Positions 14,500 through 42,752 of a DNA stretch of 64,000 nucleotides are shown piece after piece. The stretch's first letter is position 1. Every line of letters starts with the position of its first letter. The notes beneath the pieces are model-generated. The model was not told the DNA's origin and did not search any database. It saw only the letters and a program-made list of their open reading frames with translations. The DNA comes from a virus. The stretch spans positions 124,001 to 188,000 of the IMG/VR virus record IMGVR_UViG_3300047560_000921. One strand, written 5' to 3'. The position numbers and the translations under genes were made by a program.

Positions 14500-15036
14500 T
14501 TATTGATCCGGTGTTTCAAATAAGTCAGCTTCTGCGACTCTACGCTTAGTCAAACCAGGAAGTTCTTTTCCTCCTGCTTTGTTCCAACGCATAAACTGTT
14601 CGCGGCATCCTGCAAAGTTACCTGCGTTTACAGTCTTAAGCAAAGTGCTGGCACGTAAGTTACCTACACCTGCATTGTAAGCAAAGCTAACTAGCGCATC
14701 AAACATGTTTTGGGTGACGTGCGGGTTAGTTACCAATTTGTCCACATTGTGGGCAAACTCGTCTACTTCAGTTTCAAATAACTCGTTAGCATCAGCTAGC
14801 GAACATTCGTCACCGTCTGCTACTGGTGTATCGTCTGCCCAACGTGTATTGCCCCAACCAATGGTTGCAACGTTGGCACTACAGCGGTAGCTATATACTG
14901 TCTGTTCTGTGTTGATTAGGTTTGTTACTGGTTTTGGTTTGATCTTACCTAGTGCGGCAGATCCTGGGATTGAACTATAGCATCCTTCAAAATGCTTAAT
15001 TAAATCTAATCCATGTTGACCTATTGTTCTAGCCAT
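14500..15036 (-). CDS. Endolysin, lysozyme family GH24
   Basis: A peptidoglycan-cleaving lysozyme of 178 residues. The catalytic Glu is in LIKHFEGCYSS, and TIGWGNTRWADD supplies the Asp/Thr region (Thr replaced by an equivalent G-W-G-N-T arrangement). The fold's second half is typical (FDALVSFAYNAGVGNLRASTLL; FMRWNKAGGKELPGLTKRR). The ATG at 15036 follows AGGAG with 8-base spacing; a longer frame to 15069 lacks that site. No signal peptide is visible, so release would need a holin. It works with the spanins near 55 kb. Confidence 0.9.
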   Translation of the reverse strand: MARTIGQHGLDLIKHFEGCYSSIPGSAALGKIKPKPVTNLINTEQTVYSYRCSANVATIGWGNTRWADDTPVADGDECSLADANELFETEVDEFAHNVDKLVTNPHVTQNMFDALVSFAYNAGVGNLRASTLLKTVNAGNFAGCREQFMRWNKAGGKELPGLTKRRVAEADLFETPDQ

Positions 15037-15062
15037 ATGTGTGCTCCTGTATATCCTTATAT

Positions 15063-16241
15063 TTACCAAATATAGGGAAACAGTTGCTGGCTGTTTGTTT
15101 TCCTGATTGCGTCTAAGTCCGTTAAGTACTTACGGGTAGATTCTATTCCATTGCTGTGAGTTTTAAGCAAATTATCCACTAAATCAGGCATTTCAGAAGT
15201 TAAATTATGCTCTTTGAGCCATTGTCTGTGGAACTGAGTCATACGCCTTGCTTCGTCTCTATGTTCCATGGGCAGTAAATCAGCTTTTAAATTCTCTGGG
15301 AAACTGATAGTGTTGTATTGATAATTGTGTATGCCCGTAGCGGTGTAGATAGCACGTTCAATCTTGTCCAGGTCCAGGATGTTTAATATGCTAATGCTAG
15401 GGGTAATTTTAATGTCAATGTGTGGGCATTGGTTCTTAACCTGTGTTAAGTTTTCTAGTATTTGCTTCCAGCTGGCACCCCGACGAATGTAATCAAATCG
15501 GTCCCAGACGTTGTCTATGCTAACTAGCATACTGATATTGCTAAAGTTATTCCATAAGTCCAAGACATTCTTTTTCTTGTAGTTCAAGTTGGTTAAGTTT
15601 GTTATATAGGATATGTTAACTTGCTTTTTGTTTGCGGCAAAGTATTCTAGAATTTCATAGTGCTGATCCGTTACTAGTGGTTCCCCTCCGGCAAAGGTAA
15701 CGTTTTCTACGTCATCTAAATACTCTTCTTTTAACTGTTCCATAATGTCTAAACTTAATATTCTATCATGTCCGCTACTGCGTCCTAATTTAATCCAATC
15801 GCTATGCCATGTGCTACTAAACGTTGGGCCACAACTTACACAGGCCAAATTGCAAACGTTACTGAATCTAATGTCAAGATATTTAAGTTTAAAATCAGTA
15901 AAGTCTGTGGGGTGATATTTAAAGCTATTGATACGCATACTGTCCATACCAACAGCTTCTTGCTCATAGCATTTATAGCAAGTGTCTACAAGCTCACCCG
16001 CCAGCATTTTTTGTTTTATTTCTTTGAACTTGTCACCATTAACTATGTCTATGATTTTAGTTTGGTTTAAGTTACCAATGGGTTTAAGCGGATCACTCAA
16101 GCAACAAGGAAACGCTTTACCGTCGGGCCATGCATGTAAATGAACCCATGGTAAAGTGCAGATGCTTTTATTTGTAGTAGGATCTAAGGATCTCGTACCA
16201 CTCGGGGAAAGTGTCTTTAAAGCTCTGTTTACGATATTCAT
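15063..16241 (-). CDS. Twitch-type radical SAM protein, array member 7 (last)
   Basis: A 392-residue radical SAM protein. An N-terminal Cys-rich region (CTLPWVHLHAWPDG, then PCC, then CYKCYEQE near residues 27-90) resembles a half SPASM (twitch) auxiliary iron-sulfur site placed before the core. The core has the CX3CX2C cluster motif CNLACVSC near residue 130 and FAGGEPL near 168. Substrate unknown. The ATG at 16241 lies 74 bases inside the upstream gene, an unusually long overlap, and no better start is seen. It ends the seven-gene array. Confidence 0.82.
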   Translation of the reverse strand: MNIVNRALKTLSPSGTRSLDPTTNKSICTLPWVHLHAWPDGKAFPCCLSDPLKPIGNLNQTKIIDIVNGDKFKEIKQKMLAGELVDTCYKCYEQEAVGMDSMRINSFKYHPTDFTDFKLKYLDIRFSNVCNLACVSCGPTFSSTWHSDWIKLGRSSGHDRILSLDIMEQLKEEYLDDVENVTFAGGEPLVTDQHYEILEYFAANKKQVNISYITNLTNLNYKKKNVLDLWNNFSNISMLVSIDNVWDRFDYIRRGASWKQILENLTQVKNQCPHIDIKITPSISILNILDLDKIERAIYTATGIHNYQYNTISFPENLKADLLPMEHRDEARRMTQFHRQWLKEHNLTSEMPDLVDNLLKTHSNGIESTRKYLTDLDAIRKTNSQQLFPYIW

Positions 16242-17358
16242 CTTGTTCTTCGTTACGCTTCATAAACAAGCGCATCTTTTCTGGGTCTGGTTCACTGGCC
16301 ATGAAGTTTAATATTGGCAGTATCTCTGGCTGGTACTCTTGTAAAGGACTTAACTTCTTAACTAGAATTTCTTTAATAGCAGGATCTAATGCCGCAATGC
16401 TTTGGTCATAAGGTGCATGTAATATATTGTACCAAACGCTGGTACCAATGTTTTTTACAATCTCATTGGTAATTTCATCTAAGTAAAATATATTGTAGTT
16501 ACTTATAGTTGCGTTAGTACTTAATCTAATCCATGAATGTTCTTTGAACTGTAGTACATGGTCACGTACTCGTGCCCATTGGCTAGGATAACGTTGGTAA
16601 TGATGTCTATCGCCAATATCATCAACACTTACTTGTACATCTACCAGTTTAAACTGTTTCCACAATTCAATTTGTTCATCACTAGGCATGATACTGCCGT
16701 TGGTATTGTAGTGTATAGTTTGGCGTTTACTGTATCCTTTTTCCGCACTGTGCTCGAGTATGGTCCACATGTTTTCAATTAGCAATGGTTCACCGCCATA
16801 TAAGTCCATGTGTTCAATGTTAGGTAATGCTTGTTCTAAATTGTCCCAAATGTTTTGATCCTTTTTCCAAGCATCACGCATTTCCTTAAAGCTACGATGA
16901 AACTCTACTTTACTTTCAGTAGGTTTACGCAAGTCATACCATTCGTCAATCCACTGACTGCTATTCATAGGATTACATATACGACATTTTAAGTTGCACA
17001 AGTTACCCATCTTCAAGTCAACAATTTTAATAACATGTTCGCCGGGCATGATTGTTTTCTTGCCGTCTAGGTATTCTTTGCTGTCGCGCATACGCTTACT
17101 GTTTTGGCCAGCACGTTCTTCATCCCAACAACGTTTGCAGTTAGGATGCTTAAAGCCAATGTTCAAGTCTCTGCGTAGCTCGCTCATCCACTTACTGTCA
17201 AAGGCTTCCTGCATGTTGTCTATGCTGGGCTTAAATGGCGTACCGTCATCTTTTCTAATAGCCAGCTCGCTCATACAACATGTTTTGTAATGTCCGTCTG
17301 GCGTAGTGCTAATAGCCGCATTAGGATGAATACAGAATGTTTGTTTATTAATATACAT
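16168..17358 (-). CDS. Twitch-type radical SAM protein, array member 6
   Basis: A 396-residue protein. The N-terminal region has CIHPNAAISTTPDG, KTCCMSE and CKRCWDEERAG; the core has CNLKCRIC near residue 118 and YGGEPLLI near 175. The N-terminal cysteines are spaced like an auxiliary cluster site, the core like a SAM-cleaving 4Fe-4S site. It overlaps its neighbours by 11 and 74 bases and must be translated with them. Target unknown; the family is often labelled twitch-domain radical SAM protein in phages. Confidence 0.84.
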   Translation of the reverse strand: MYINKQTFCIHPNAAISTTPDGHYKTCCMSELAIRKDDGTPFKPSIDNMQEAFDSKWMSELRRDLNIGFKHPNCKRCWDEERAGQNSKRMRDSKEYLDGKKTIMPGEHVIKIVDLKMGNLCNLKCRICNPMNSSQWIDEWYDLRKPTESKVEFHRSFKEMRDAWKKDQNIWDNLEQALPNIEHMDLYGGEPLLIENMWTILEHSAEKGYSKRQTIHYNTNGSIMPSDEQIELWKQFKLVDVQVSVDDIGDRHHYQRYPSQWARVRDHVLQFKEHSWIRLSTNATISNYNIFYLDEITNEIVKNIGTSVWYNILHAPYDQSIAALDPAIKEILVKKLSPLQEYQPEILPILNFMASEPDPEKMRLFMKRNEEQDEYRKQSFKDTFPEWYEILRSYYK

Positions 17359-18571
17359 CGTACCATTCCTTAAACCATGGATGCAAGTCTAGTAAGTTTT
17401 GACGTCTATGTGAATCCATAAACTTCATACGCTTGATAAAGTCTTGCTTGTCTTGTTCACTGGGACTAGGTAGTGCGGCAATCTTTTCCAAACTCTTTAC
17501 CATGTTAGATAAAGCATAGTGTTCGCCGAACTTACTGTTAATGTGTTTGGCAGCATCTAAAGCAATACTAGCTCTAACTGAATCTGGTAGCACTTCGGGT
17601 CTCATACAAGTTGGATGATCCACGTTGATGACAAATATGTTAAAGTCTAGTTCGCCTACTAAAATGTCAGCAACCTTTTTCATGCTGGGCATAGTTAAGT
17701 TGCTTAGTGTAGTATGTATGCAAGTCTTGTTATTAGGACGTTGCTTAGACCAGTACTTTAGTTCTTGTAAGTTACTGTAAATCTTATCCCACTTAGCTGG
17801 CCAACGCACATACTCGTAGTATTCTTCCACACCGTCTATGCTGGCGTTTAAGTTTACTTCTTTAAAGTGGCTCCACTTGTCGTACCACTTGCTACCAATA
17901 GTAGTAATGTTACTGTTATACTCGAGCGAAATGTTTTTAGCAAAGTCTAGTTCAATTAGCAAGTCCAGAAACTCTTCTTGCTCGTCCATGATTAAAGGTT
18001 CGCCGCCAATGATGTATACGCTTTTTAAATCGTGCCCTTGTTCACGGACAACATCAAATAGTCTGCTACGCTTAACCCAACTAGTCTTCTCCAAGAAGTC
18101 CATGTCAACTTGTGTGTATGCATTGGCTGGGTCTTTGTTAATTTCCTGTGCTAGCAAACTGCTACTATACGGATGGCACATTCTACAAGCTAAGTTACAT
18201 TTGTTACCAAAGTCTAGTTCTAAACGTTCCAGCTTTACAGTGGCATCGCCTTGTAATAACTTATTGTAAGTCTCTGGGAATCTATATGTATTATTAATTT
18301 GTCTGTAGCTTTCAGCTTTGATGTCCTCTAGCTTCCAGCAACGTTCGCATTGTGCTGGTTTGTATCCTGCTAGCATAGTACTGCGTACTCGTTGCAATGC
18401 AGAATTGTGTTGCCATGTTAATTCAACTCGTTGCGTAACAGGAGCAGGCATATCGCTATTGCTAAGTCCACCATTGAGTGCATTACAACATAAACGCTGA
18501 TGCCCACTTTGCCCAATACTCAACGTATTAAAGGGCAGTACGCACAACGTATCATTTAACGTATTTTTCAC
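17348..18571 (-). CDS. Twitch-type radical SAM protein, array member 5
   Basis: A 407-residue protein with N-terminal CVLPFNTLSIGQSG, RLCCNA and CERCWKLEDIKAES, and a core CNLACRMC near residue 137 plus IIGGEPLIMD near 195. It is the same architecture as members 6 and 7, with enough divergence to suggest a different substrate rather than a recent copy. Overlaps of 20 bases upstream and 11 downstream indicate coupled translation. Confidence 0.84.
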   Translation of the reverse strand: MKNTLNDTLCVLPFNTLSIGQSGHQRLCCNALNGGLSNSDMPAPVTQRVELTWQHNSALQRVRSTMLAGYKPAQCERCWKLEDIKAESYRQINNTYRFPETYNKLLQGDATVKLERLELDFGNKCNLACRMCHPYSSSLLAQEINKDPANAYTQVDMDFLEKTSWVKRSRLFDVVREQGHDLKSVYIIGGEPLIMDEQEEFLDLLIELDFAKNISLEYNSNITTIGSKWYDKWSHFKEVNLNASIDGVEEYYEYVRWPAKWDKIYSNLQELKYWSKQRPNNKTCIHTTLSNLTMPSMKKVADILVGELDFNIFVINVDHPTCMRPEVLPDSVRASIALDAAKHINSKFGEHYALSNMVKSLEKIAALPSPSEQDKQDFIKRMKFMDSHRRQNLLDLHPWFKEWYDVY

Positions 18572-19898
18572 AATCTTTTAAAAACTTTTCGTATTCTGGA
18601 AATGTAGACAAGAAATCGGTTCCTCGTCTGCGGTCATGCTCCATGAAGAATCTGTAGAAGTCTGCCTTGGCGTTTATTTCTCTAACCAATGACAATGTGT
18701 GTTTGCGGAAGTGACTGCGAACACGTTCTAGTCGTTCTATTTCAATAGCATTGAAACCTTTATTTAAATGCTCTTTCATAAATGCAATGTCTGCATCTAT
18801 GTAATGTACAAAGTCTGGAGGTAGTATTCCTATGCTCCAGTGGTCGGGCTCTTTAAGGTGCGGTGTAATAAACTCTACACGATTGCCGTAGAGCTGTCGC
18901 CATTCTAATATCTTTTTCAGTAACTGATTAAAGCTAGGCAATACCATGTTGTTGTATGTAACCATAATTTCAACACTGGCATTGATGTCCTTAAAGTTAT
19001 CCATTATAGTTTTAAAGTTCTGTTCCCATACGGCACAGTCTAATCCATAACGAATGTATTCAGCAGGCTTGCCCCAAGTATCTAAACTAACATGCATACG
19101 ATAATTCTTAATTGCACGTTTGCTTAACAATGTTTTAACACGTTCGCTTAATCGTTCTATTAACGCAGGCTTGACGCCCAAGTTACTATTGATTAGCAAT
19201 GTAAGATGCGGAGCAGGTTCTGCTTCTAACTTGTCTAACAGTTGCCATGTGTTTTGATTAAGCATGGGCTCACCGCCGGTAATGCGTAAAGTCTGTAAGT
19301 CTTTAATCAGTGTAGGCCACCAAGCCCAAAATGCTTTTACGTAAGGATTGTTTTCATCATCGCTTTCGTAGTATTCTCTGTCCTTGATAAAATCGATGCT
19401 GTATTGTTTTGTTAGTACAGGAAAGTTGCCATTGGTCTTAATGTCGTTGATCCAACTGTTGCTAACTGTGGGAGTGCAATAACCACACATAAAGTTACAA
19501 ACATTACCAAAGTTAACTTCGATGAACTTGGGGTTAAAATCATCAGTAGGACCTAAGCTACGCACAATGTCATAGACGTCCATGTCATTGGCACTGTTAA
19601 TAATCCTATCACTGATGTGTCCATTGTCTTCTACTTGCCAGCAAAAGTTACATTCTTCTGGACGCTTACCCGATAGCATTTGCTGTCTACGTTCTTGCTT
19701 GTGTGCAGTATTATGTAGGCCAGAAGGGCTACGCTTGATATCCTTAATATCAATCTTATGTGGGTGTGGATGATAACAACTATGGTTATCTCCTGTTTGC
19801 AAATACAATGTTTGCTGAGTCCATTTAAGTAAACAGAATCCTTGTCCTACTTGATCCAGTTTGGCTTTAACGGACTTTAGTCTATCTAGCTCATCCAT
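18552..19898 (-). CDS. Twitch-type radical SAM protein, array member 4 (HSCYHP subgroup)
   Basis: A 448-residue protein of the subgroup with the N-terminal signature GFCLLKWTQ...HSCYHPHPH, SPSGLHNT and ECNFCWQVED; the core has CNFMCGYC near residue 140 and ITGGEPMLNQ near 210. The ATG at 19898 is chosen because the longer frame to 19934 begins with GTG and no ribosome site; it overlaps the upstream stop by 8 bases. It is closely similar to members 1 and 2. The C-terminus ends like theirs (FYRFFMEHDRRRGTDFLSTF), a repeated signature of this subgroup. Confidence 0.85.
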   Translation of the reverse strand: MDELDRLKSVKAKLDQVGQGFCLLKWTQQTLYLQTGDNHSCYHPHPHKIDIKDIKRSPSGLHNTAHKQERRQQMLSGKRPEECNFCWQVEDNGHISDRIINSANDMDVYDIVRSLGPTDDFNPKFIEVNFGNVCNFMCGYCTPTVSNSWINDIKTNGNFPVLTKQYSIDFIKDREYYESDDENNPYVKAFWAWWPTLIKDLQTLRITGGEPMLNQNTWQLLDKLEAEPAPHLTLLINSNLGVKPALIERLSERVKTLLSKRAIKNYRMHVSLDTWGKPAEYIRYGLDCAVWEQNFKTIMDNFKDINASVEIMVTYNNMVLPSFNQLLKKILEWRQLYGNRVEFITPHLKEPDHWSIGILPPDFVHYIDADIAFMKEHLNKGFNAIEIERLERVRSHFRKHTLSLVREINAKADFYRFFMEHDRRRGTDFLSTFPEYEKFLKDCEKYVK

Positions 19899-21189
19899 TT
19901 GTTTGTGTCTTGTGATGTTGGCTTCCCAGCTCACCGTTGTCTAGTTTGTTCCACTCTTTACCACAGCAAGTACTACATTGACGACTACGCATATTGTGTC
20001 CTTTGTATATACTGCGTGGCAGGAACCTATCAAAGAACTGTCCTTTAAGAACTTGGGCCAATGTGTTCTGGTGCAAGCTCAATGTATCCATACCGCCAGC
20101 AAGTTCAATCATTTGAATACTTGCATCATCGCTGATGTTCTTAAATGCCGCACCTTGCTTGGCAACTTCCCACGGTCTGTCGTCACTGATATGACGCCAT
20201 GGCTCGCCACCAATAAAGCAACATGGGAATACATGTCCGCTGGCACTGACAAAGATTTCGTTTAGTTGATTATTGCCGCCCTTTTCGTGATGCTGTGCTC
20301 TGCAACTAACTTCGATGTCATTGTGTTTGAACTTGACCCATTCGTTCTTTTCGTTGTCCCATTCTCTGTGCTCCAAACTAATTTGTTGCATCTTATCAAA
20401 CTCTTGATTAGTAATGTACATAGGAACAATACCAATAGTCTTTAGTTCTTTAAAGTTACTATCCCTAAAGTTTTCGTTGTCTGGTTGTTCTAATTTGTAT
20501 AGCACTTGCTTGTCTTTGTTAAGCACTTCGTAGAACCCGCGGCCAGCATCGTCCCACTTGTGCCAACGAGTAGTACGCTTAACGTTAAAGAACTCAAAGC
20601 CCAATTCATCTGCTAGTGCTCGTGCTTGTTCGACTTGATGTTCGTTATGTTTGAATACAATAAAGTCCCACTTGGCAACCCCACCAGCAGCCTTAAATGC
20701 TTTCATGTTAGCAAGGATCTTACTGAACTTAGTATTACGGCGATACAAGTGATTAGTGTCTTCTAACCCGTCCACACTAAACACGCAAAAGTCTCCACGC
20801 TCAAAGTTATTAACCACTTTACCTAGTTCAGTCCACCAAGCAGGTGTACGTGCGCTGGCATTGGTATGTAACGTAAGAGCCATGTCAGGATTATGTTCTC
20901 TCATGTACTTGAAGATTTCTAAACTGTCTTTGGCAACAATAGGGTCTCCGTAATTACCACATGCATACACACGCTTTAACTGCTTGACAAAGGCAGGTGG
21001 GAACCATGTTTTAAATTGTTCCAGGGTAATTTCAGTTTCTTGCACCTTAGGATTCATCTCTGCGCCGTTGTTAATATAACGTGGACACATAGGACAACCG
21101 GCATTACACTTGTCTGTTAGTTCTAAGTGCATACCTGTAATTTCGCCCGGGCCGTACAAGGCTGGCACATCATAGTTCATTAATCTCAT
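19891..21189 (-). CDS. SPASM-like radical SAM protein, array member 3
   Basis: A 432-residue protein that differs from the other array members. The core cluster CNAGCPMC is near the N-terminus (residue 28), followed by GNYGDPIVAKD instead of GGEP. Additional cysteines are at the C-terminus (SASGHVFPCCFIGGEP and RQCSTCCGKEW), a SPASM-like layout. SPASM enzymes often modify peptides or proteins. The ATG at 21189 overlaps the previous stop (ATGA) and follows AGGAATTGG. Flanked by members 2 and 4, it may act on a shared substrate. Confidence 0.84.
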   Translation of the reverse strand: MRLMNYDVPALYGPGEITGMHLELTDKCNAGCPMCPRYINNGAEMNPKVQETEITLEQFKTWFPPAFVKQLKRVYACGNYGDPIVAKDSLEIFKYMREHNPDMALTLHTNASARTPAWWTELGKVVNNFERGDFCVFSVDGLEDTNHLYRRNTKFSKILANMKAFKAAGGVAKWDFIVFKHNEHQVEQARALADELGFEFFNVKRTTRWHKWDDAGRGFYEVLNKDKQVLYKLEQPDNENFRDSNFKELKTIGIVPMYITNQEFDKMQQISLEHREWDNEKNEWVKFKHNDIEVSCRAQHHEKGGNNQLNEIFVSASGHVFPCCFIGGEPWRHISDDRPWEVAKQGAAFKNISDDASIQMIELAGGMDTLSLHQNTLAQVLKGQFFDRFLPRSIYKGHNMRSRQCSTCCGKEWNKLDNGELGSQHHKTQTNG

Positions 21190-22592
21190 TTCCAATTCCT
21201 ATATACTTGTTCACACATATAAAAGAAGTCTGTGTATTCTGGGAAGGTAGCTAATAAGTTAGTACCTCTACGTTTGTCATGTTCTGTAAAGAACGTATAA
21301 AAATCTCTGCGCCCTTGTCTTATAACATCTGCATTTACTGGATTCTCTGCCATGTAATCAACTACACGCTTGAACTTTTCAATTTCTACTTTATCAAACC
21401 CATGCTTAAAGTCTGGCCTGCGTTCTCGATACTTCATATGACGCAAGTGGTCATACATATTGTCCAAGAAGTTCTTAGTTAAAATGTTAATCATCCAGTG
21501 AGGCGGTTCTTTTAAGTAAGGAGTATCAAAGCCAATGCGTTGGGTATACATGTTTTCCAGTGTACCGTATTCTTCTCTTAACGCTAGTATTTTGTCCAGT
21601 AACAATCTAAACTTAACTACACTAAGGACGTTAAATGTAATCATCAAATTGATTTTACTGTTTGGTACAGTGTCTAAGAATATACGTACATTCTTTTCCC
21701 ATAGCGCACAGTCTAAGCCATTACGCATATACTCTGCACGTTCACCCCAACTGTCAATGCTGGTAAACAGTCTAAAGTCTTTAATCTTTCCTTCTGCTAG
21801 CAACTTACTTACTTTCTCGCTCAGTTTCTCTACTAGGCTAGATTTCATGCCCAAGTTACTGTTGATATGTAATTGTAGCTCTGGCGCAGGATCTTCATCT
21901 AACATGTCTAACAGTTTAAACGTATTGCTATTAAGCAATGGCTCACCACCGGTGATCCGGAATACTTTTAAGTCCTTCTTTAGACTTGGCCACCACTCCC
22001 ACCATGCATCCACATAAGGGTTCGGCATATCAGGTTCGTAAAATACTCCGGCCTTTAAGAAGTCAATGCTGTACTGTTTGGTAGTAATGTCATAGTCGCC
22101 TTTGCGTTTGATTTCTTCCATCCATGCGCTACTAGCCTGTGGACAGCAGTATCCACATTTAAGTTGGCAAGCATTACCAAAGCTAACTTCAATGTGTCTG
22201 GGATTCCAATCTGCATCAGCATCTAAGTTTCTAATAGTGTCGTAGTCTTCGATAGCATAGTCACTGGTACTGTGTACAAATCTATCACTGATGTGGTCAC
22301 CTTGCAAGTCTTCGACGTTCCAACAGTAATAACATTCACTGGGACGTTCGCCTTCTAGCATTAGTTTGCGTTGTTGCTTTTTGTACTCTGTATTGTGTAG
22401 TCCACTAGGGCTTCTTTGTATATCTTCTATTTTAATCTTGTGTGGACGTGGATGGTAACAACTGTGGTTGTCGCCCATGTGCAAATACAATGTTTCCGTT
22501 TGCCATTTCATCAAGCAAAAGCCCTTGCCCACTGCATTGAGCTTTTCTTTTGTTTCTAATAGTTTGTCGTAATAGCTTTTAGGCTCTTGCAT
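21186..22592 (-). CDS. Twitch-type radical SAM protein, array member 2 (HSCYHP subgroup)
   Basis: A 468-residue protein: GFCLMKWQTETLYL, HSCYHPRPH, SPSGLHNTEYKK and CYYCWNVED in the N-terminal region; core CQLKCGYC near residue 152 and ITGGEPLLNS near 222. The ATG at 22592 follows a GAGAA site and leaves a 14-base overlap with member 1; a longer frame to 22715 would overlap it by 137 bases. The C-terminal DFYTFFTEHDKRRGTN matches members 1 and 4. Confidence 0.85.
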   Translation of the reverse strand: MQEPKSYYDKLLETKEKLNAVGKGFCLMKWQTETLYLHMGDNHSCYHPRPHKIKIEDIQRSPSGLHNTEYKKQQRKLMLEGERPSECYYCWNVEDLQGDHISDRFVHSTSDYAIEDYDTIRNLDADADWNPRHIEVSFGNACQLKCGYCCPQASSAWMEEIKRKGDYDITTKQYSIDFLKAGVFYEPDMPNPYVDAWWEWWPSLKKDLKVFRITGGEPLLNSNTFKLLDMLDEDPAPELQLHINSNLGMKSSLVEKLSEKVSKLLAEGKIKDFRLFTSIDSWGERAEYMRNGLDCALWEKNVRIFLDTVPNSKINLMITFNVLSVVKFRLLLDKILALREEYGTLENMYTQRIGFDTPYLKEPPHWMINILTKNFLDNMYDHLRHMKYRERRPDFKHGFDKVEIEKFKRVVDYMAENPVNADVIRQGRRDFYTFFTEHDKRRGTNLLATFPEYTDFFYMCEQVYRNWK

Positions 22593-24222
22593 TATAACTG
22601 TTCTCGCATTGTTTCCAATAGAGCTGTAGCTCTGGGAATGTCTTAACAAAGTTTGTACCTTTGCGATAATCATACTCTCTAAAGAAAGCATAAAAATCTC
22701 TACGCAATAATGCACGTTCGTTGTCAGTGTATGTACAACTCTTCATCCATGCAATGTTGCGTTTTAGTTTGTCTATTTCAAAATCTGCAAAGCCAATTAG
22801 TTCGCCGTGTACTGCTACACTGTTTGCTTCCATAAACTCAACTGCTTTATCTAAGATGCTGTGCATGTTAGCGGGCAAGTTTTGTATAGTTAACCAAACA
22901 GGAGTGCGTAGTGTAGGAATGTCAAACCATACACGTTGTCGGTCCCAGTAGTTATTAAACTCGGGATTCTTTTCTGGAATGTCCTTGAGACTGTTAACAT
23001 ACTTACGCATGTCTAAAATCATCTCTAAGTATTTTTGCAATCCAGGAACGCTTAATAGATTGAATGTGTTAATAAAATTAACAGTGGTCATATGAGTATC
23101 ATATAACACACGCTTAGTATTAGTTATCAGTGTATCATAGTTCATTCCATTGCGAATGTACTCTGCTTGTGCGCCATGACTGTCCACGCTTACATAAATG
23201 CCAATGTGTCTACACGCTTTTGTTCTAGTTAACTCGTAGCTAAAGCTACCGTCTGCGGGAACATGGTCAATGGTTGGCAAGCCATGTATCTGCAATCTAT
23301 GTAGTGTGTCTACATTAACTTGTGACTTGTTTAACACATGGCGCGGCCATTTAGTGTGACTTTTCTTTCCATTGTTAACTGCTATAACTGTGGCACTGGC
23401 ACTGTAGTTTTCGATGGCTTGTACGCTATTAACAAACTTGTCTAGTAAGTCTTGCGATGGCGGGCACATGTTGGTAGTAATACCAATCTCTAAATCACCC
23501 TTAGGGTTCGCCGCAATGTAATCTAAAACCTTAAACGTGTTCTTATCCATGAGTGGTTCGCCACCAGTCATACGGAATACAAGTAGTGTTTCATACAACT
23601 CAGGCCACCACTTCCAAAATGCCTCTACGTAAGGATTATCTCTGTTAGCTACCTTTAAGGGCATTAAGCCGTTGGCTTCTAATGCAGGGATAGCATTGTG
23701 TGGTGTACTAGTAGGATAAGGCCCGTACTCTTTAATTTCTTCTTCCCATGCAGTGCTTAAATGCGGACTGCAATAAGCGCATTTAAAGTTACAACTTTGA
23801 TTAAAGTTAACTTCTACATAAGTGGGGTTAGGTTCTAGATTACTGATACTATCGCGATAAGGCAACGCCCAGTGTTCGCTACTACGATAATGTCTATCGC
23901 TGGCACTGCCTTGTGCTTCTAAACTCCAGCAGTACGAACAACCTGCAGGCTTTTTACCCGCAAGCATTTGTTTTCGTTCTTCTATCTTTTGGTCAGTATT
24001 ATGTAATGCGCTAGGCCTGCGCTGTATTTGATCAATGCTAATTGCGTGAGTAGGCGGATGATAGCAACTGTGAGTTCTGCCATTGGTTAAATGTAGGCTG
24101 ACGTGGTACCATTTAGCCAAACACATGCTGTCACTTTGACTGTTAAGCCATTCAGTGCTAGACTCTCTTAGTTTGGCTACCTCAGTAGCGGTAAGTGGAT
24201 TTGTGTGTACGTATGGTCGCAT
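22579..24222 (-). CDS. Twitch-type radical SAM protein, array member 1 (HSCYHP subgroup, longest)
   Basis: At 547 residues this is the longest array member and the first transcribed. The N-terminus has MCLAKWYHVSLHL, HSCYHPPTH, RPSALHNTDQK and CSYCWSLEA; the core has CNFKCAYC near residue 143 and FRMTGGEPLMDK near 208. An insertion of about 70 residues (roughly 245-315) after the GGEP region is absent from members 2 and 4. Promoter TTGACA-N17-TAGAAT lies directly upstream, with no visible ribosome site before the ATG. Confidence 0.85.
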   Translation of the reverse strand: MRPYVHTNPLTATEVAKLRESSTEWLNSQSDSMCLAKWYHVSLHLTNGRTHSCYHPPTHAISIDQIQRRPSALHNTDQKIEERKQMLAGKKPAGCSYCWSLEAQGSASDRHYRSSEHWALPYRDSISNLEPNPTYVEVNFNQSCNFKCAYCSPHLSTAWEEEIKEYGPYPTSTPHNAIPALEANGLMPLKVANRDNPYVEAFWKWWPELYETLLVFRMTGGEPLMDKNTFKVLDYIAANPKGDLEIGITTNMCPPSQDLLDKFVNSVQAIENYSASATVIAVNNGKKSHTKWPRHVLNKSQVNVDTLHRLQIHGLPTIDHVPADGSFSYELTRTKACRHIGIYVSVDSHGAQAEYIRNGMNYDTLITNTKRVLYDTHMTTVNFINTFNLLSVPGLQKYLEMILDMRKYVNSLKDIPEKNPEFNNYWDRQRVWFDIPTLRTPVWLTIQNLPANMHSILDKAVEFMEANSVAVHGELIGFADFEIDKLKRNIAWMKSCTYTDNERALLRRDFYAFFREYDYRKGTNFVKTFPELQLYWKQCENSYNARA

Positions 24223-24230
24223 AATTAACT

Positions 24231-24272
24231 GCGTAGATTATTTATTCTACGCTAGTTAACTGAAAATGTCAA
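24231..24272 (-). promoter_or_regulatory. Sigma70 promoter plus hairpin upstream of the radical SAM array
   Basis: Minus strand: TTGACA (24267-24272), 17-base spacer, TAGAAT (24244-24249). A perfect 7-base inverted repeat GCGTAGA/TCTACGC (24231-24237 and 24246-24252) encloses an 8-base loop that reads ATAAATAA on the minus strand, a late-type core. The element therefore combines an early promoter, a hairpin and a possible late promoter. The -35 box overlaps the end of the 24269..24661 gene. Confidence 0.78.
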
Positions 24273-24661
24273 GACGTAACTTTAGGTGGATGTTGAGTTT
24301 TATTTGAACTCATCATGTTCGAACTAGTAGGATGTTGCTTCCAATGTTCGCTGTGTAATTCACTAGCAATATTAGGCTTGTGTGCAACTAGCCATTTCTT
24401 AATAACAGGAATACAGTCAGCTTTGGGATCCTTCTTTTCTTTGTAAAAATCAAGAAGTTCTTGATGTAAGTCAGGATAAGTCAGGCCTACTCTGCTCAAC
24501 GCTTTGATGCTATCATAAGCATCTTTACCAACAGCAACAGTTCCAAACAGAACCAAATGGCCCAAGCCGATAATATCAATTTTAGCACGTTCGACATCCC
24601 ATAAGTCACCAGAAGGTTTCCATACTCCTTCTTGTTCATTTAAAAATTCATGTGCTCTCAT
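24269..24661 (-). CDS. Tagged protein (MRAHEFLNE), putative head-packaged cargo
   Basis: A 130-residue protein of unknown function. Its first residues MRAHEFLNEQEG match the N-terminal tag shared by about ten proteins in this window; L-N-E at 7-9 fits the L/I-x-E cleavage pattern of T4-type prohead proteases. The rest has a hydrophobic helix (IIGLGHLVLFGTVAVG, near 30-45) and a polar His/Ser/Asn-rich tail. Confidence 0.72.
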   Translation of the reverse strand: MRAHEFLNEQEGVWKPSGDLWDVERAKIDIIGLGHLVLFGTVAVGKDAYDSIKALSRVGLTYPDLHQELLDFYKEKKDPKADCIPVIKKWLVAHKPNIASELHSEHWKQHPTSSNMMSSNKTQHPPKVTS

Positions 24662-24677: not shown

Positions 24678-25421
24678 CTATTTAATCAATTTTATCATTA
24701 AGCCTGCAAAGTCAAATTCCCACCACTTTTCTTTGGTTGTGTAGCTAATGGGATTGTCGTGGTGATTGGCATGCCATCCCTCCCCAAAGAACAGTATAGC
24801 AGTAATAGGGTTATTGTAAGCATGATGTTTAGGGTTATCCCTGTTTCTGTAGCCAAACCAGTGGTTAATAGTGTTTACACTGCCGCCTATTTCCCATAGC
24901 AATGCCATTGGGGCTAGATATGCACAAATAAACAATGCAGGGCTAATCAGCAACCATGTAATGCCAATGATAATGTGTAGCTTGAAATAGTTTCTATTCA
25001 GCTTAGTTTGGAACTTGTCCTTGAGCATGTCTATAATATGCTCTCCGCCGGCTTGCCCAAACATGCCTAAGAACTGGACTCTAGCTAGGCCCAAGTGCTC
25101 AGGTCCATGTGGGTCACGTTCCGTATCTACAAACTTGTGATGTGCTCTGTGTACTGCGGTCCATACCATGGGACTACCAATGCCCGCATAAGCACCTAGC
25201 AAACTGCCAATCTTCCTGTATCTGTCACTGGCTGGCCAACTGTTGTGTGCTAGCAGTCTGTGGTAAGTCATTACTAGGCCAAAGCATCCGCACAGAACAA
25301 ATACAACCAGTGTAACTAACCACGCAAGGGTAGTGCCGTAGACAATTTGGTATACCAGGCCCATGTGTGCAAGTATTTGTAAGTACAAGACTTTCCAGCT
25401 GGTAGTGAGATATTTTTTCAT
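24678..25421 (-). CDS. Membrane fatty acid desaturase (acyl-CoA desaturase type)
   Basis: A 247-residue membrane di-iron desaturase with the three histidine boxes: HRLLAH near residue 53, HRAHHKFVD near 88-96, and GWHANHHDNP near 222-231. Hydrophobic segments surround them. These enzymes use O2 and reduced ferredoxin or similar to put a cis double bond into acyl chains. Phage use could be to alter host membrane fluidity or lipid precursors. It overlaps the downstream-acting oxygenase gene by 4 bases, so the pair is co-expressed. Confidence 0.88.
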   Translation of the reverse strand: MKKYLTTSWKVLYLQILAHMGLVYQIVYGTTLAWLVTLVVFVLCGCFGLVMTYHRLLAHNSWPASDRYRKIGSLLGAYAGIGSPMVWTAVHRAHHKFVDTERDPHGPEHLGLARVQFLGMFGQAGGEHIIDMLKDKFQTKLNRNYFKLHIIIGITWLLISPALFICAYLAPMALLWEIGGSVNTINHWFGYRNRDNPKHHAYNNPITAILFFGEGWHANHHDNPISYTTKEKWWEFDFAGLMIKLIK

Positions 25422-29436: not shown

Positions 29437-29898
29437 TTAAGCCAATCGACTCTCGGCAACTTGCTTAACTGCTTGAATTGCAGGTTGTACTTGGTTCTTT
29501 TTCAGTGTAACCGGGTAAGATTTGCCATTATGTTCGAATTCATCTTTACCAGACGCCGCGGCCCTGATGTGTGCAAATGCAAAATCTTCTTCGCTGCCGC
29601 CTAGCTTTTTTGCAGCCCAGTCCCATAATTGGTCAGCGCCCGCCATGGCAAACTTACTGGCATTATAAGCACCGGCGGCACCCATTCCGATGCCTAAAAT
29701 TGGACCTAGTATTCCTATTAATGCCGGCGTGCCTGCGGCAGCAATGCCGCCAACAGCTAGTCCAGCCGCGCCGCGTACTAATGCTGGAGCCGCCTCATCG
29801 GTTTTCTTTTTAGATACTCTACGTTGCATAGAGCCCATGGGCGTTGCTACTGCGGCAACGGCACCTGACGTGCATTCAACTAGTTCGTGTAATCTCAT
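29437..29898 (-). CDS. Tagged glycine-zipper membrane-active protein (MRLHELVE)
   Basis: A 153-residue protein starting MRLHELVECTSGAV, with L-V-E at 6-8. A basic stretch (RRVSKKKTDEA) is followed by a long Gly/Ala-rich hydrophobic region (about 42-85: AAGLAVGGIAAAGTPALIG, ILGIGMGAAGAYNASKF) typical of glycine zippers that insert into membranes. If packed in the head and ejected it could help form a channel for DNA entry; this is inference. A perfect late promoter lies immediately upstream. Confidence 0.75.
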   Translation of the reverse strand: MRLHELVECTSGAVAAVATPMGSMQRRVSKKKTDEAAPALVRGAAGLAVGGIAAAGTPALIGILGPILGIGMGAAGAYNASKFAMAGADQLWDWAAKKLGGSEEDFAFAHIRAAASGKDEFEHNGKSYPVTLKKNQVQPAIQAVKQVAESRLA

Positions 29899-29976: not shown

Positions 29977-30828
29977 TCACATGACATAAACATTACCCTC
30001 TGCGTTCCCTAATACATCACTAAACATCATGCCCATATCGTTGGCTAGTCTTGCAGTTGCTTCTTCTCTACTAAGTTCATCTGCATAGTCTTGCTTGATA
30101 CGCATACCGTTAGTTGCATTACCCCATGCTTTACGGCCGTAGCTTAATGCCACTGGCAATGGGTTAAGGGTTACATGTCCAGTCTTGATATACTGGGCAA
30201 ATAATTCGTACAAGAATTCATATGGACGTTTAATTTGTCCTGTTCTACTACTACGTTGGGTGCCAATGGCATTAAACAGTGCGTTGTATTCAGCTGACAT
30301 ATCCCAGTTAACGCTGGAATTATATGAGCTTCTTGTGTTCTTGCCATAGTACTCTTGCAATATTCCATTGACGGTATTAAAGAATAGCTTTTCTGTTTCA
30401 GTCCATGCATTAGTTACATTACCCATGCGGCGATTAGTGGCTTGGATAGCATGTCCAAACCTATGTGCCATGATCCATGGGGTCATCATAACTCTACCAG
30501 TGCCACTGTTACCCACAAACACAATAGTAATTGCCGATTCGTGCCCTTGCATGATTTGATTTACTTGCTCGGGACTAAACATTTGAGCCAATGTATCTTG
30601 TTTAACTAAACCTGTTTCAGCTTTCTTACCAGTTCCAGTAACATTACTGAAAAATAGTCTAAAGTCGTAGGGAGTGTTTTCTAAAAACTGTGCAGTCTTT
30701 AACTTGTTAGTGTCGTGGGTAATAAGTTTTCTATCAACTTCATGACGAAATGGACCACTTTTGTCAAAGTCGCCTAATGTGTCGTAGCTTGCCAATGGCA
30801 TTTCGCTGATTAAATCACGTAATCTCAT
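29977..30828 (-). CDS. Tagged protein with degenerate metallopeptidase-like motif (MRLRDLISE)
   Basis: A 283-residue protein starting MRLRDLISEMPLASY; I-S-E at 7-9 fits the prohead protease pattern. The middle has TPWIMAHRFGHAIQ near 128-141, followed about 75 residues later by PYEFLYELFAQYI. This is laid out like a zincin (HExxH plus a downstream Glu), but Arg replaces the catalytic Glu (HRFGH), so it may be an inactive or differently acting relative. It overlaps the next tagged gene by 4 bases. The link to peptidases is tentative. Confidence 0.7.
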   Translation of the reverse strand: MRLRDLISEMPLASYDTLGDFDKSGPFRHEVDRKLITHDTNKLKTAQFLENTPYDFRLFFSNVTGTGKKAETGLVKQDTLAQMFSPEQVNQIMQGHESAITIVFVGNSGTGRVMMTPWIMAHRFGHAIQATNRRMGNVTNAWTETEKLFFNTVNGILQEYYGKNTRSSYNSSVNWDMSAEYNALFNAIGTQRSSRTGQIKRPYEFLYELFAQYIKTGHVTLNPLPVALSYGRKAWGNATNGMRIKQDYADELSREEATARLANDMGMMFSDVLGNAEGNVYVM

Positions 30829-31364
30829 AGTGTTGGGTTTCCAAATACAGTTTCTCTAACAACCTTACCGCCGGGCAGTCTACGGTCGTATGTATCATTG
30901 TCTACCATTTCTAAAAATGGATCATTGAACAATGCTTGCAGTGTTTTTAAATCTTCTACAGCCGGTATGCTGAGCTTTTTCAATATATGACGCATAGCGT
31001 CACTGGACTCTAACCATACACCTGGCTTAGTTAGCATTTGTTGTATCTTATTAATAGCTTTATCTTTGCTAGTTCTAGATCCATCATGCCCGATGCCTTG
31101 AATTTTAAAACCATGCCATGGTTCGCCTGCTCTATTGCGTCTATAAAATACACAAGCATCTACATCTGGATCATGATCCCAGTCTATTACGTTCCAGTCA
31201 CTGGGTATAACATCTTTAAGACTGTTAACAAAACTTCCTTGCGGAGTATTACTATATGCAACCTGCACTAAGCCCACAAGGTCATCGCTTACTTCATGCT
31301 TGTCTGCATTAGATATGTCAATGACCCATTGGTTCTTAGGAAGGTCTAGTTCAAATAATCTCAT
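30825..31364 (-). CDS. Tagged conserved protein (MRLFEL)
   Basis: A 179-residue protein beginning MRLFELDLPKNQW, a tag without an obvious L/I-x-E site. The body has a compact alpha/beta pattern (VVIDWD-like segment VIDWDHDPDVDACVFYRRN, then FKIQGIGHDGSRTSK, then SSDAMRHILKKLSIPAV). Function unknown. ATGA and single-base overlaps join it to two other tagged genes. Confidence 0.68.
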   Translation of the reverse strand: MRLFELDLPKNQWVIDISNADKHEVSDDLVGLVQVAYSNTPQGSFVNSLKDVIPSDWNVIDWDHDPDVDACVFYRRNRAGEPWHGFKIQGIGHDGSRTSKDKAINKIQQMLTKPGVWLESSDAMRHILKKLSIPAVEDLKTLQALFNDPFLEMVDNDTYDRRLPGGKVVRETVFGNPTL

Positions 31365-32518
31365 TAATGGAATAGTAAGTAACTGCCCACAACATCATTG
31401 CGGTTAGCAGAGTTATCGCCATCACCTGGCATAACAATAACGTTCCACTTTGGCTTATCGCCTACTGGAAGTTTCATCATTTGATCGTATGTTAAAATGC
31501 TGTCTTTATCAATGTGATACTTTTGTGCCAGACGATCCTTAAAGCCTTCTAAGTTATTTGCACTTGCAAATTGCATACGTCCTTTAGAATCCTTTTTCAA
31601 CTCGTTACCATCACGTGCAATCAAGTCAAAGAACATGTCCTTAGGGACAACCTTACTATGCTTGGTACGTACTAAATCAACTTTCTTTTCTTGTCCACGT
31701 TTAGCACCTTGGGAAAAGTTCATGTTAAAGTTCTTTGGACGAGCGGCATTGGCAACATCACCCATCTTAGTGTAAGCATAGAAGCCAACGTCTGGGTTAG
31801 CTTCAGCAACAGCGTAGGCCATGTCCATGTACTCTGGGCTAAAGAAGTCGCCAGCATCATGCCACCGCACAACAATCTTCGCACCTTTTTTAGCATACTT
31901 GACTTTAGCGGCCGCAATTTCTGCGTTTAACTTTTCTGTAAAACCTTCTGGGTCGTTTAACAAGAAGTTAAGCATACGGGCCAAGCCCATGCTAACTGCT
32001 TTGAACATCACATAGCTACCTTTCATAGCATAGCAATAAGTTTGGCAAGCACCAGCGCCCGGGCAAGTGTCTACAACCACGAACTCACCGGTCTTTTCAT
32101 TTACAGCAAGACCCTTTAAGGCTGGCAAGCCAATATCAAAGATTGCTTCAGTACCAGTTTCGCTGTGTTGCATTTTAGCATTTTGTCCAAGAATGCTCTT
32201 TGGACGAACCATAATAGCGGCTTTTAGTTTTTCAGTATCAAATGTTTTACCGGACTCGTCTTTAACTTCAATGTTGCTACCGTGGATATATGGATAATCA
32301 TATTTGTCACGCTTGGTTTTTTGTTTGTTTTTACTGCGGCCCATTAGAGCTTGCATTTCATCGTCGGGTATTGAACGATAGTTTGCGCCTAGGCCAAAGT
32401 CGGCTTCGTCAAGATCTTCGTCGGGGTCAACAAATTGACCTAAGGACATTACAGTAAGACCGTTTAACTTACTTTCCGTTAGTGTTGTTTTAGATTCGAA
32501 TAGTTCGTAAAATCTCAT
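31364..32518 (-). CDS. Tagged Gp88-like protein (MRFYELFE)
   Basis: A 384-residue protein whose tag MRFYELFESKTTLTESKL is followed by two candidate cleavage sites (L-F-E and L-T-E). The body resembles the phage Gp88 family: a Cys-rich segment DTCPGAGACQTYCYAMKG near residues 153-170 and RWHDAGDFFSPEYMD near 218-232, with later FYAYTKMG. The four cysteines could bind metal or an iron-sulfur cluster, and the fold is reminiscent of radical SAM-like barrels; activity is unknown. It is flanked by other tagged genes. Confidence 0.72.
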   Translation of the reverse strand: MRFYELFESKTTLTESKLNGLTVMSLGQFVDPDEDLDEADFGLGANYRSIPDDEMQALMGRSKNKQKTKRDKYDYPYIHGSNIEVKDESGKTFDTEKLKAAIMVRPKSILGQNAKMQHSETGTEAIFDIGLPALKGLAVNEKTGEFVVVDTCPGAGACQTYCYAMKGSYVMFKAVSMGLARMLNFLLNDPEGFTEKLNAEIAAAKVKYAKKGAKIVVRWHDAGDFFSPEYMDMAYAVAEANPDVGFYAYTKMGDVANAARPKNFNMNFSQGAKRGQEKKVDLVRTKHSKVVPKDMFFDLIARDGNELKKDSKGRMQFASANNLEGFKDRLAQKYHIDKDSILTYDQMMKLPVGDKPKWNVIVMPGDGDNSANRNDVVGSYLLFH

Positions 32519-32527
32519 TGTATATCC

Positions 32528-33772
32528 TTACTTTACAGTTTCAACAGCATCAGCAAATGCTTGTGGTATAAGTTTTTGTAGCAATGCGCTAAGTTCGCCT
32601 TCAATGGTCATAGCACATTCAAACTCTGCTTCTTCGTCTTCAATATCTTCTAGCACTTCTTGAATGTAGAACCATATTTCACGGCCGCGAACAAAGTCAG
32701 TAATAGGTCCACTTATCTCGTCGTACAAGGCATCGTCGTCGTTAACTAGTTCAGGAGCCTCTTGAATCAGTTGTACGATTGATCTAGTAAGATCATTGAT
32801 GCCACGCTTACTCATCATGTCTTCTGCTAGTTCATAAATTTCTTCCATGCCGTTAAAGAACTTTACAGCCCTGCCCATTTCTTTAAAGATTTCTTTAGCT
32901 AGCGTTGTTCTATTTTGTTCAAGTAAGTGTCTTAGGGATTCACCAAACACTGGCATAGCTCTAATCATCAATGCTGGTAAGTCGGTGATTTCTGGATCTA
33001 ATGCAAGGATGTGATTTTCTTTTGCTTGTCGAGCAAAGATAGTTGCTAGTTGTGGGTAGCGGTTTCTTAGTTCAGTTAAGTTAACACGATGGTCCTTTTC
33101 ATTCATGAACTGTTTTGTTTGGAAGTGGAACTGATACTTCTCACCGGCATATGAAGGCTTCTTAGGAAGGATAATATACATTTCGCCTTCTTTGTTATAG
33201 CGATTGAACATGTTATTCTCTTTACCCGCTGTACACCACTTAGTACCCTGTCCATAATAACAAGCGGCTGTTTGGTCTTCGGGAATAAGAACACGAATAT
33301 CTGCATCTTGATAGTAAGGCTTAGCCTGCCCACGGTCAACATCTTTTGGCTCATCTACTACATCTGGATGTTGGTCAACAACTTGTACTAGTCCTGCTAG
33401 GTCTTTGATACGGCCAATGTCGTTGTTTGGTGCTGGAATTTGTTTTTTGTTTACTAACTTGAAGAACTTTTGTAGGGGCTCTGTTACTTTAGTGATAGCG
33501 TCTTCAAACTTTAAGGATGGGTTGTTAACGTAGTTGCGAATAATCCATGGCACATATTGTTTGTTCTTTGTTGGATCAGCTAGTTCAATGCGTCCTAGTA
33601 AATGATCTAAGACTACTTGGTCTTCTGCGCCAGCATTAACAATGCGTTGTTGCCACTGTGGCGGCTCTTTTTGGAACTTTGCTAGCAGGCCGGCACCCAG
33701 TTTTTGCGCTGTAACGTCGCGGCTGTACTCTAGTAAAGTTGATGTATTAGTAAAAAGTTCAAATAATCTCAT
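32528..33772 (-). CDS. Tagged conserved phage protein (MRLFELF)
   Basis: A 414-residue protein starting MRLFELFTNTSTLLEYSRD, with L-L-E at 13-15 as a possible cleavage site. The central part has GQGTKWCTAGKENNMFNRYN near 178-197 and MYIILPKKPSYAGEKYQFHF, a pattern shared by phage proteins of unknown role. The C-terminal half is helical and acidic (IQEVLEDIEDEEAEFECAM). A hairpin with a late core in its loop lies just upstream. Confidence 0.7.
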   Translation of the reverse strand: MRLFELFTNTSTLLEYSRDVTAQKLGAGLLAKFQKEPPQWQQRIVNAGAEDQVVLDHLLGRIELADPTKNKQYVPWIIRNYVNNPSLKFEDAITKVTEPLQKFFKLVNKKQIPAPNNDIGRIKDLAGLVQVVDQHPDVVDEPKDVDRGQAKPYYQDADIRVLIPEDQTAACYYGQGTKWCTAGKENNMFNRYNKEGEMYIILPKKPSYAGEKYQFHFQTKQFMNEKDHRVNLTELRNRYPQLATIFARQAKENHILALDPEITDLPALMIRAMPVFGESLRHLLEQNRTTLAKEIFKEMGRAVKFFNGMEEIYELAEDMMSKRGINDLTRSIVQLIQEAPELVNDDDALYDEISGPITDFVRGREIWFYIQEVLEDIEDEEAEFECAMTIEGELSALLQKLIPQAFADAVETVK

Positions 33773-41403: not shown

Positions 41404-41767
41404 TTTTTGTAACAACTTTCCAAGAGCCCCAACAATGTTTGACGCCCTCACTCTTAACAATCCAATCAATAGTAACAATAGCCAACTTTACGTTATCGCA
41501 ATTGAACTCAATGGTAAGTGGCACGTTGACTTTTACAGGCCGACTAAACTTCAAATCCATTTTTGCACTTAATGCATACTTGATGTCTTTAAAGTATTCT
41601 TGTTCTGTAAATTTGCTCCACACTAACCATTGGGGTAGTTTGCTGATAATAAAGCCGCCTTGCACTACACCGTGAACTACGTGAATTTCCTGGTCGTCAC
41701 CGCTGATACGTGCAAAGTCCTGCACTTGCTCTAGCGTAAAACAGTCCGTGGCAATAAATGTAGTCAT
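41390..41767 (-). CDS. MaoC-like hotdog-fold protein
   Basis: A 125-residue protein resembling MaoC/(R)-hydratase proteins: VQDFARISGDDQEIHV near 16-31 (family FAxxSGDxNxxH) and GVVQGGFIISKLPQ near 34-47, then strands of a hotdog fold. Members hydrate enoyl-CoA/ACP or bind acyl chains. One would be a lipid-related partner for the desaturase, but this is inference. Its promoter places TATAAT 5 bases before the ATG. Confidence 0.6.
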   Translation of the reverse strand: MTTFIATDCFTLEQVQDFARISGDDQEIHVVHGVVQGGFIISKLPQWLVWSKFTEQEYFKDIKYALSAKMDLKFSRPVKVNVPLTIEFNCDNVKLAIVTIDWIVKSEGVKHCWGSWKVVTKNDTK

Positions 41768-42468: not shown

Positions 42469-42752
42469 ACGCTAGTACTGGCTTCAATGGTAAAATCAAA
42501 GGGTAATTTTGCCAATAGCTTTTTGGATATTACATCGCCGTCAATTTTACTTAGGTCACTGCTCAGTGGTATATCATAGCAATGTTCCATGTCACGTTCG
42601 TGATAAACCATTACAGCACCGTCTGCTTGCTGACTAATTAACTTGCCCACAGGACTGTCAAATACAATTTTGAAAAATGACTTTAGTGTGTCTTTGTCTA
42701 GTTCTTGATCCGATACTAGTCTAATAAAATGGTTAAATTCTTCTGCTATCAT
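42465..42752 (-). CDS. Hypothetical protein
   Basis: A 95-residue soluble alpha/beta protein of unknown function (segments FFKIVFDSPVGKLISQQ and AVMVYHERDMEHCYDIPL). It is coupled by ATGA to the tagged gene upstream. No motif, membrane segment or tag of its own is seen. Confidence 0.6.
   Translation of the reverse strand: MIAEEFNHFIRLVSDQELDKDTLKSFFKIVFDSPVGKLISQQADGAVMVYHERDMEHCYDIPLSSDLSKIDGDVISKKLLAKLPFDFTIEASTSV

Follow-up and report, generated by a model that had tools for sequence, protein, structure and literature searches.

Phages with 11–12 radical S-adenosylmethionine (SAM) genes, radical SAM cassettes in host recognition clusters and glycosylation of virions have already been published. 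In pelagimyophages and cyanomyophages, T4-like marine phages, the host recognition cluster combines tail fibres, GT8 genes and radical SAM cassettes (PMC7029224). The Campylobacter phages CP220 and CPt10 encode 11–12 radical SAM proteins, five of them clustered, and two genes with a nucleotide-diphospho-sugar transferase domain, noted as such transferases within the CP220 cluster (PMC2853527); the T4-like marine phage TARA_ERS488813_N000010 has 12 radical SAM genes, discussed together with Fe-S assembly proteins (PMC5332604); mycobacteriophages carry glycans on capsid and tail-tube subunits (Freeman 2023, cited in PMC12619734). Here we describe an array of seven consecutive, overlapping radical SAM open reading frames (ORFs) on the minus strand at positions 15063-24222 of the window, i.e. 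the whole stretch of 64,000 nt that was analysed, which corresponds to C1:124001-188000 of a 231,384-base virus record, IMGVR_UViG_3300047560_000921 (positions in the record are prefixed C1; the array is at C1:139063-148222).

The record contains a Gp23 capsid gene of T4 type and, at 84-100 kb, a fibre/GT8-like/radical SAM module comparable to the cluster of PMC7029224. That report mentions radical SAM cassettes as variable insertions only, whereas the seven-gene array described here sits outside the module, ~40 kb off. The matched enzymes of CP220/CPt10 resemble ORF5 of our array, with its C-terminal cysteines, and not the N-terminal-twitch type; the module of these phages includes a putative glycine amidinotransferase. 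With the TARA phage the present one shares T4-likeness, a marine setting and the large number of radical SAM genes, but the A-type Fe-S carrier PF01521 was not found in this record by profile search. Virion glycosylation in mycobacteriophages is a precedent for the class of target, and PMC12619734 makes no mention of radical SAM enzymes. In the open-licence literature we found no description of the ordered orthologous array, of its fibre/glycosyltransferase operon or of a function for the family NF033640; the name of this family (N_Twi_rSAM) gives no function and was itself not found there. An initial annotation of the sequence knew of no described role for such an array, and the same literature gave us none.

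We tentatively propose that the seven genes form a late-expressed operon, a displaced copy of a widespread cassette that in uncultured T4-like aquatic phages usually closes the fibre/glycosyltransferase operon. Its products would act in order, by radical chemistry, on a glycoconjugate that is most likely part of the tail fibres; we place this reading somewhat short of probable.

The array and its enzyme family

Pfam Radical_SAM matches all seven ORFs, two of them below the curated cutoff, and the motif CX3CX2C is found in each, confirming the run of seven minus-strand genes reported initially; on this motif rests the predicted capacity of the seven proteins to cleave SAM and to bind a [4Fe-4S] cluster. 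Loss of these cysteines in most members had been named as an argument against a single system; the motif is intact in 7/7. The curated cutoff of NCBIfam NF033640 (170 bits, whole-protein score) is passed by a wide margin by ORF1, 2, 3, 4, 6 and 7, with 294.8-325.9 bits. In members of this type four N-terminal cysteines, the putative ligands of an auxiliary cluster, precede the core (in ORF7 C34, C53, C95 and C98, with the core at 144), and their spacing is conserved across clades, in almost all homologues listed; in ORF1 Pfam SPASM (PF13186) is matched at residues 28-92, ahead of the core, with 8.3e-10. The half-SPASM layout that was suggested for six of the genes, a Cys-rich N-terminal region before the core, is therefore borne out. 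ORF5 lacks this region, falls below the cutoff and is not a member; as had been noticed, it has a SPASM-like C-terminus instead, in which C298, a PCC and a C-terminal Cys pair are conserved (alignment A8). Equally well read were the HSCYHP/CxxCW signature and the common C-terminus of three members, ORF4, 6 and 7 (38-50% identity to ORF6).

The AlphaFold2 model of ORF6 reached a predicted local distance difference test score (pLDDT) of 93.5. The top PDB matches of this model in Foldseek include viperin, BlsE, SuiB, MoaA and AprD4, with EpeE also among the matches; since the fold resembles nucleotide, sugar and peptide radical SAM enzymes alike, the chemistry cannot be named. A PDB profile search with ORF4/6/7 gave no match. 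PqqD was not detected by Pfam in the seven ORFs or in the three upstream genes; distant recognition elements (RREs) of ribosomally synthesized and post-translationally modified peptides (RiPPs) were not searched for.

ORFs were called by a simple greedy method, and neighbours in the array overlap by 10-137 nt when the longest frames are taken. The relatives L047/L091 suggest a later start for ORF4, and ORF6 probably starts later as well (its longest frame begins at 22715), so that two of the overlaps are shorter. Overlaps of 4 to 74 bases had been given initially. The array is followed by a lysozyme-like gene, named by reading the sequence; it keeps this position in L047/L091 and probably shares the transcript of the array.

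In comparison with the close relative L091 we determined ratios of non-synonymous to synonymous substitution rates (dN/dS) of 0.039 for ORF1, 0.034 for ORF2, 0.037 for ORF3, 0.031 for ORF4, 0.013 for ORF5 and 0.022 for ORF6; the values for the DNA polymerase and the lysozyme-like gene were 0.023 and 0.034. As dN/dS of ORF1-6 is like that of the DNA polymerase, the array is real and maintained, and ORF1-6 are, by this measure, functional.

Gene order, partners and late-type motifs

A scan of viral contigs with ORF4/6/7 confirmed at least 586 of 600 candidates, of which the best 80 were kept, and a scan with ORF5 gave at least 587 matches; the homologous contigs are partly redundant and these abundances are lower bounds. 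Arrays of 2-8 radical SAM genes are common among the loci examined and recur in at least scores of aquatic viral contigs, a result at odds with the array being a peculiarity of one phage. Runs of eight genes, longer than that of the window, were seen in L092 (array 67653251), L117 and L234.

In a tree of 207 members ORF7, ORF6, ORF5, ORF3 and ORF2 fall into separate clades, each spread across many phages, while ORF4 is the sister of ORF6, a lineage-specific duplicate. IQ-TREE ultrafast bootstrap values (81 sequences) were 95 for clade 7, 100 for each of clades 6, 3, 2 and 5, and 58 for clade 1. With labels assigned by the best BLAST hit to the tree, 7 comes before 6 in 68/70 arrays, before 5 in 30/30 and before 2 in 47/47, and 6 comes before 1 in 70/75; a similar order is kept in the close relative L091 and in the more distant L092, L095, L097 and L044. 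Judging from tree and gene order, the members are old paralogues held in fixed order across phages. Such an arrangement fits several different steps of one system. The phylogeny, which the initial annotation had recommended as a check for duplication, reveals ORF4/ORF6 as the only lineage-specific duplication, and the copies are not scattered and independent: order is conserved, and displaced blocks keep it. The sequential modification proposed initially for a graded, divergent array is in line with fixed-order paralogues; as to its substrate, a glycan or glycoprotein is better supported than a peptide.

Upstream of the array, and in the same orientation, most loci have genes that we designate F and E (fibre-like), D, C, C, G or T, and B. 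F matches tail-fibre PHROGs and D encodes ~115 aa; the usual operon order is tail fibre, small protein, two GT8-like transferases, a GT-A-like transferase and the radical SAM array. C resembles glycogenin-type GT8 structures (2e-6). For B, which has no sequence match, the AlphaFold model (pLDDT 82.7) resembles GT-A-type glycosyltransferases, the Foldseek matches including WrtF and a PBCV-1 capsid glycosyltransferase (E 1e-4, with a TM score of only about 0.3-0.4); profiles of the neighbours B, H and M gave no convincing match against PDB. Three different seeds (ORF4/6/7, ORF5 and B) led to loci with the same module. The scan seeded with B returned 80 loci, 78 of them with a radical SAM gene of this profile (73/74 after near-identical B proteins were removed); where the sequence was long enough, the radical SAM gene lay no more than six genes downstream in 65/65. 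This reciprocal test weighs more than the first count, because the first loci had been found by the radical SAM genes themselves. Some loci also have SGNH-like, epimerase, carbamoyltransferase and methyltransferase-like genes before or after the array.

The module of the present genome (C1:84000-100583) consists of a large fibre-like gene, U, F, E, D, C, C, G, B, an enzyme gene, B, B and d, where the enzyme is a single NF033640 member (320.5 bits) and d belongs to a family with a marginal methyltransferase match. The simplest reading of the seven-gene array is that of a displaced block with its internal order kept. A conserved small neighbour that could be the substrate, which the initial annotation had advised looking for, did not emerge: what accompanies the arrays consistently is glycosyltransferase and tail-fibre genes. 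No conserved short ORF was found beside the arrays except for the proteins between the glycosyltransferases, and within the array there is no intergenic room for a precursor peptide gene.

Megablast of the array against GenBank phages gave no match. In tblastn searches ORF6, B, C and the core enzyme had no match in 50,697 GenBank phage records, from which near relatives of the window may be excluded, and ORF1 and ORF5 had remote matches only.

The T4 late promoter consensus is TATAAATA, a pattern to which NATAAATA conforms. Promoters in this analysis are motif matches. The record has 31 copies of NATAAATA, and a copy stands within 100 nt upstream of 24 predicted genes against 2.0 expected, the genes for the tail sheath, the head-tail adaptor and the long tail fibres among them; another copy precedes D in the fibre module. 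Ahead of the array the late-type motif AATAAATA overlaps the -10 element of the sigma70-like promoter TTGACA-N17-TAGAAT, which is present as initially described; the seven genes behind it look like a single transcription unit, in agreement with the initial annotation. Promoter-like matches overall were not commoner than in shuffles (41 found, 37 expected); TTGACA-N16-18-TANNNT stands upstream of 8/133 genes in 104 kb of this genome against 1.1 expected. At the other viral loci NATAAATA precedes the fibre gene F in 97/122 cases, radical SAM genes in 14/720 and C, G and B in 0-1%, with a background of 1.4%. With the motif before F and no more than background before radical SAM genes, we infer that in most of these phages transcription of a late fibre operon extends into the array at its end; here the displaced array would have a late-type promoter of its own, as the motif match suggests.

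Homologues were also found in other contexts. There were 26 matches in bacterial and archaeal genomes, nearly all in metagenome-assembled genomes (MAGs) of Bdellovibrionota; these enzymes are mostly 37-46% identical and often lie near group-1 glycosyltransferases, sometimes near ABC-2-type exporters. In three Bdellovibrionota loci (L171, L174 and L175) a conserved peptide of 56-85 aa, a PqqD-like protein, a group-1 glycosyltransferase and an ABC-2-type exporter pair are encoded near the homologue; this group is possibly a cluster, not described so far, for a peptide or a glycan. A Flavobacteriales MAG (L168) and a Rhodobacteraceae MAG (L184) appear to be phage contigs, and L184 carries the fibre/glycosyltransferase/radical SAM module. 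Among Vibrio jumbo phages, Vibrio phage K566 has an NF033640-like gene (142 bits, under the cutoff) overlapping a GT8 gene, and in K567, too, a GT8 gene overlaps an NF033640-like gene. In Pelagibacter phage Mosig, three genes annotated as MoaA-like lie close to a tail fibre gene, in company with UDP-4-amino-4-deoxy-L-arabinose (UDP-Ara4N) aminotransferase, carbamoyltransferase and methyltransferase genes.

Candidate functions

In the proposed glycoconjugate modification, the glycosyltransferases of the tail-fibre module would put sugars onto a late product, most probably the tail-fibre protein. The radical SAM enzymes would each abstract a hydrogen via a 5'-deoxyadenosyl radical and so alter one position of the glycan or of the glycosylated protein, with the twitch cluster serving in electron transfer or substrate binding; differences in the enzyme set among phages could then result in varied virion surfaces. 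Given the sugar-transfer partner, the place behind fibre genes and the late signal, we favour as target a glycan or a virion protein bearing sugars, most likely a tail fibre, on which the radical enzymes would act in succession, and the recurrence of the same order behind fibre and sugar-transfer genes in other phages indicates that the cassette probably decorates a surface sugar or protein, of the virus or of the cell. A more far-reaching version, in which an ordered radical SAM set expressed late with fibres and glycosyltransferases is a dedicated virion-maturation pathway of aquatic T4-like phages that chemically rewrites the receptor-binding surface, so that radical chemistry would serve generally to diversify phage adhesins, we consider doubtful.

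Several observations weigh against the glycoconjugate proposal. Here the array lies apart from the fibre genes, and the displaced arrays of L033, L092, L095 and L097 have no late motif just ahead of them; that of L033 follows a curli-like CsgG gene (L033:136-960, 2.5e-53), which belongs to another surface-structure system. The Foldseek comparison of ORF6 with PDB indicated no single substrate class, sugar, nucleotide and peptide enzymes not being separated, the clade labels derive in part from best BLAST hits, and support for clade 1 is weak. Also, decoration of the virion and modification of the host surface are not separable by linkage alone. The main competing explanation shares most of the evidence: the enzymes might alter glycans of the host envelope (lipopolysaccharide, O-antigen or capsule) during infection, thereby blocking competing phages or re-adsorption of progeny. 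An envelope role was proposed by the authors of PMC7029224 for the GT8 genes in pelagimyophage host recognition clusters with variable radical SAM cassettes, and the group-1 glycosyltransferases and ABC-2-type export genes near bacterial homologues, as well as the sugar-modifying neighbourhood in Mosig, point in the same direction. Two features do not: a late-type motif precedes both the operon's fibre gene and the present array, and the cassette stands behind fibre genes. A phage usually needs exclusion functions early in infection. The late signal and the linkage to fibres tip the balance towards the virion, leaving the host-envelope explanation somewhat unlikely.

Peptide modification is the best-known role of SPASM/twitch enzymes, and SuiB and EpeE are among the fold matches; the substrate of the enzymes could be a ribosomal peptide or a virion protein without sugars, matured by thioether or cyclophane formation or by epimerisation, with the glycosyltransferases serving a separate function. 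The PqqD-like and peptide genes of the three Bdellovibrionota loci would agree with this, but they are on the opposite strand, several genes off, and occur in 3/~24 loci. Since the partners are glycosyltransferases and fibres instead of a precursor peptide, and the array leaves no space for a precursor gene, the evidence is better for a glycan or glycoprotein as the thing modified, peptides being just one option; the RiPP maturase reading, which seems quite improbable to us, was set aside because a precursor peptide gene was not found at the array. Smaller still is the chance that the array serves auxiliary metabolism of nucleotides, cofactors or lipids, such as 7-deazaguanine DNA modification or changes in membrane lipids. 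The cytidine nucleotide enzymes viperin and BlsE are top fold matches, FolE-like and TGT-like genes (named by reading the sequence) lie nearby, and immediately upstream there is a gene for a fatty-acid desaturase; however, the recurrent partner is the fibre/glycosyltransferase module and not nucleotide or lipid genes, and scores against the viperin profile NF038283 stayed far under its cutoff of 180 (37.5 bits at best). Array content differs among phages and the host recognition cluster is hypervariable (PMC7029224), as one would expect if unrelated radical SAM genes without a common pathway had gathered by chance in a hypervariable island. We rejected this explanation, which appears most improbable, on the near-invariant order of 7 relative to 6, 5 and 2, retained in displaced blocks, and on the strong purifying selection on all members tested.

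Radical SAM genes are widespread in aquatic phages and have mostly been catalogued under auxiliary metabolism, with no role assigned; an ordered cassette tied to fibres, glycosyltransferases and late expression leads to a testable proposal, modification of virion or surface glycans. If true, it would bring new oxygen-sensitive chemistry into phage assembly and help to explain host-range variation in abundant aquatic phages, and the arrays would be a rich source of twitch-domain enzymes for glycans or proteins.

Features of the window and the record

Table 1. Coordinates of the array genes, promoter motifs and other features (window positions; record positions are prefixed C1)
Feature	Position	Strand	Description
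ORF7	22579..24222	-	N-terminal-twitch radical SAM, 547 aa, CNFKCAYC; first of array; NF033640 294.8 bits
ORF6	21186..22592	-	N-terminal-twitch radical SAM, CQLKCGYC; start probably 22592; NF033640 306.7 bits
ORF5	19891..21195	-	C-terminal twitch/SPASM-like Cys set, without N-terminal twitch; NF033640 52.7 bits
ORF4	18552..19934	-	N-terminal-twitch radical SAM; start probably near 19898; NF033640 303.8 bits
ORF3	17348..18571	-	N-terminal-twitch radical SAM, 407 aa; NF033640 299.8 bits
ORF2	16168..17358	-	N-terminal-twitch radical SAM, 396 aa; NF033640 308.1 bits
ORF1	15063..16241	-	N-terminal-twitch radical SAM, 392 aa; NF033640 325.9 bits
Lysozyme-like gene	14500..15069	-	named without library search; overlaps array end by 7 nt
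Sigma70-like promoter	24244..24272	-	TTGACA-N17-TAGAAT; 11/12 consensus positions, joint best in region
Late motif, T4-type	24239..24246	-	AATAAATA; 16 nt ahead of ORF7; overlaps sigma70-like -10
MR-x-x-E-L/F protein	24269..24661	-	directly upstream of radical SAM array
MR-x-x-E-L/F protein	29437..29898	-	
MR-x-x-E-L/F protein	30825..31364	-	
MR-x-x-E-L/F protein	31364..32518	-	
MR-x-x-E-L/F protein	32528..33772	-	
MR-x-x-E-L/F protein	37961..38935	-	
MR-x-x-E-L/F protein	42749..43399	-	
MR-x-x-E-L/F protein	43384..44325	-	
Desaturase-like gene	24678..25421	-	fatty-acid desaturase-like
Desaturase-like gene	C1:104779..105546		fatty-acid desaturase-like, related to the preceding
N-oxygenase gene	33823..34926	-	AurF-like, 2.6e-21
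B12-binding radical SAM	35905..37935	-	676 aa
UvdE homologue	40390..41478	-	UV endonuclease, 3.3e-35
SGGID-loop protein	49159..50256	+	PP-loop/asparagine-synthase ATPase-like
SGGID-loop protein	62354..63274	-	PP-loop/asparagine-synthase ATPase-like
SGGID-loop protein	C1:101533..102603		PP-loop/asparagine-synthase ATPase-like

Outside the array Pfam Radical_SAM is matched at three places, two of them in the record beyond the window and one within it, the B12-binding protein of Table 1; in other phages several arrays are followed by members of a family related to this protein. Protein starts of the form MR-x-x-E-L/F resemble the N-terminus by which internal head proteins of T4 are targeted to the capsid and were observed nine times in the record against 0.37 expected; such proteins are possibly injected internal proteins, as their N-termini suggest. 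Two of the scattered SGGID-loop proteins are alike at 30% identity. Mosig likewise has a fatty-acid desaturase-like gene near its fibre-linked radical SAM-like genes.

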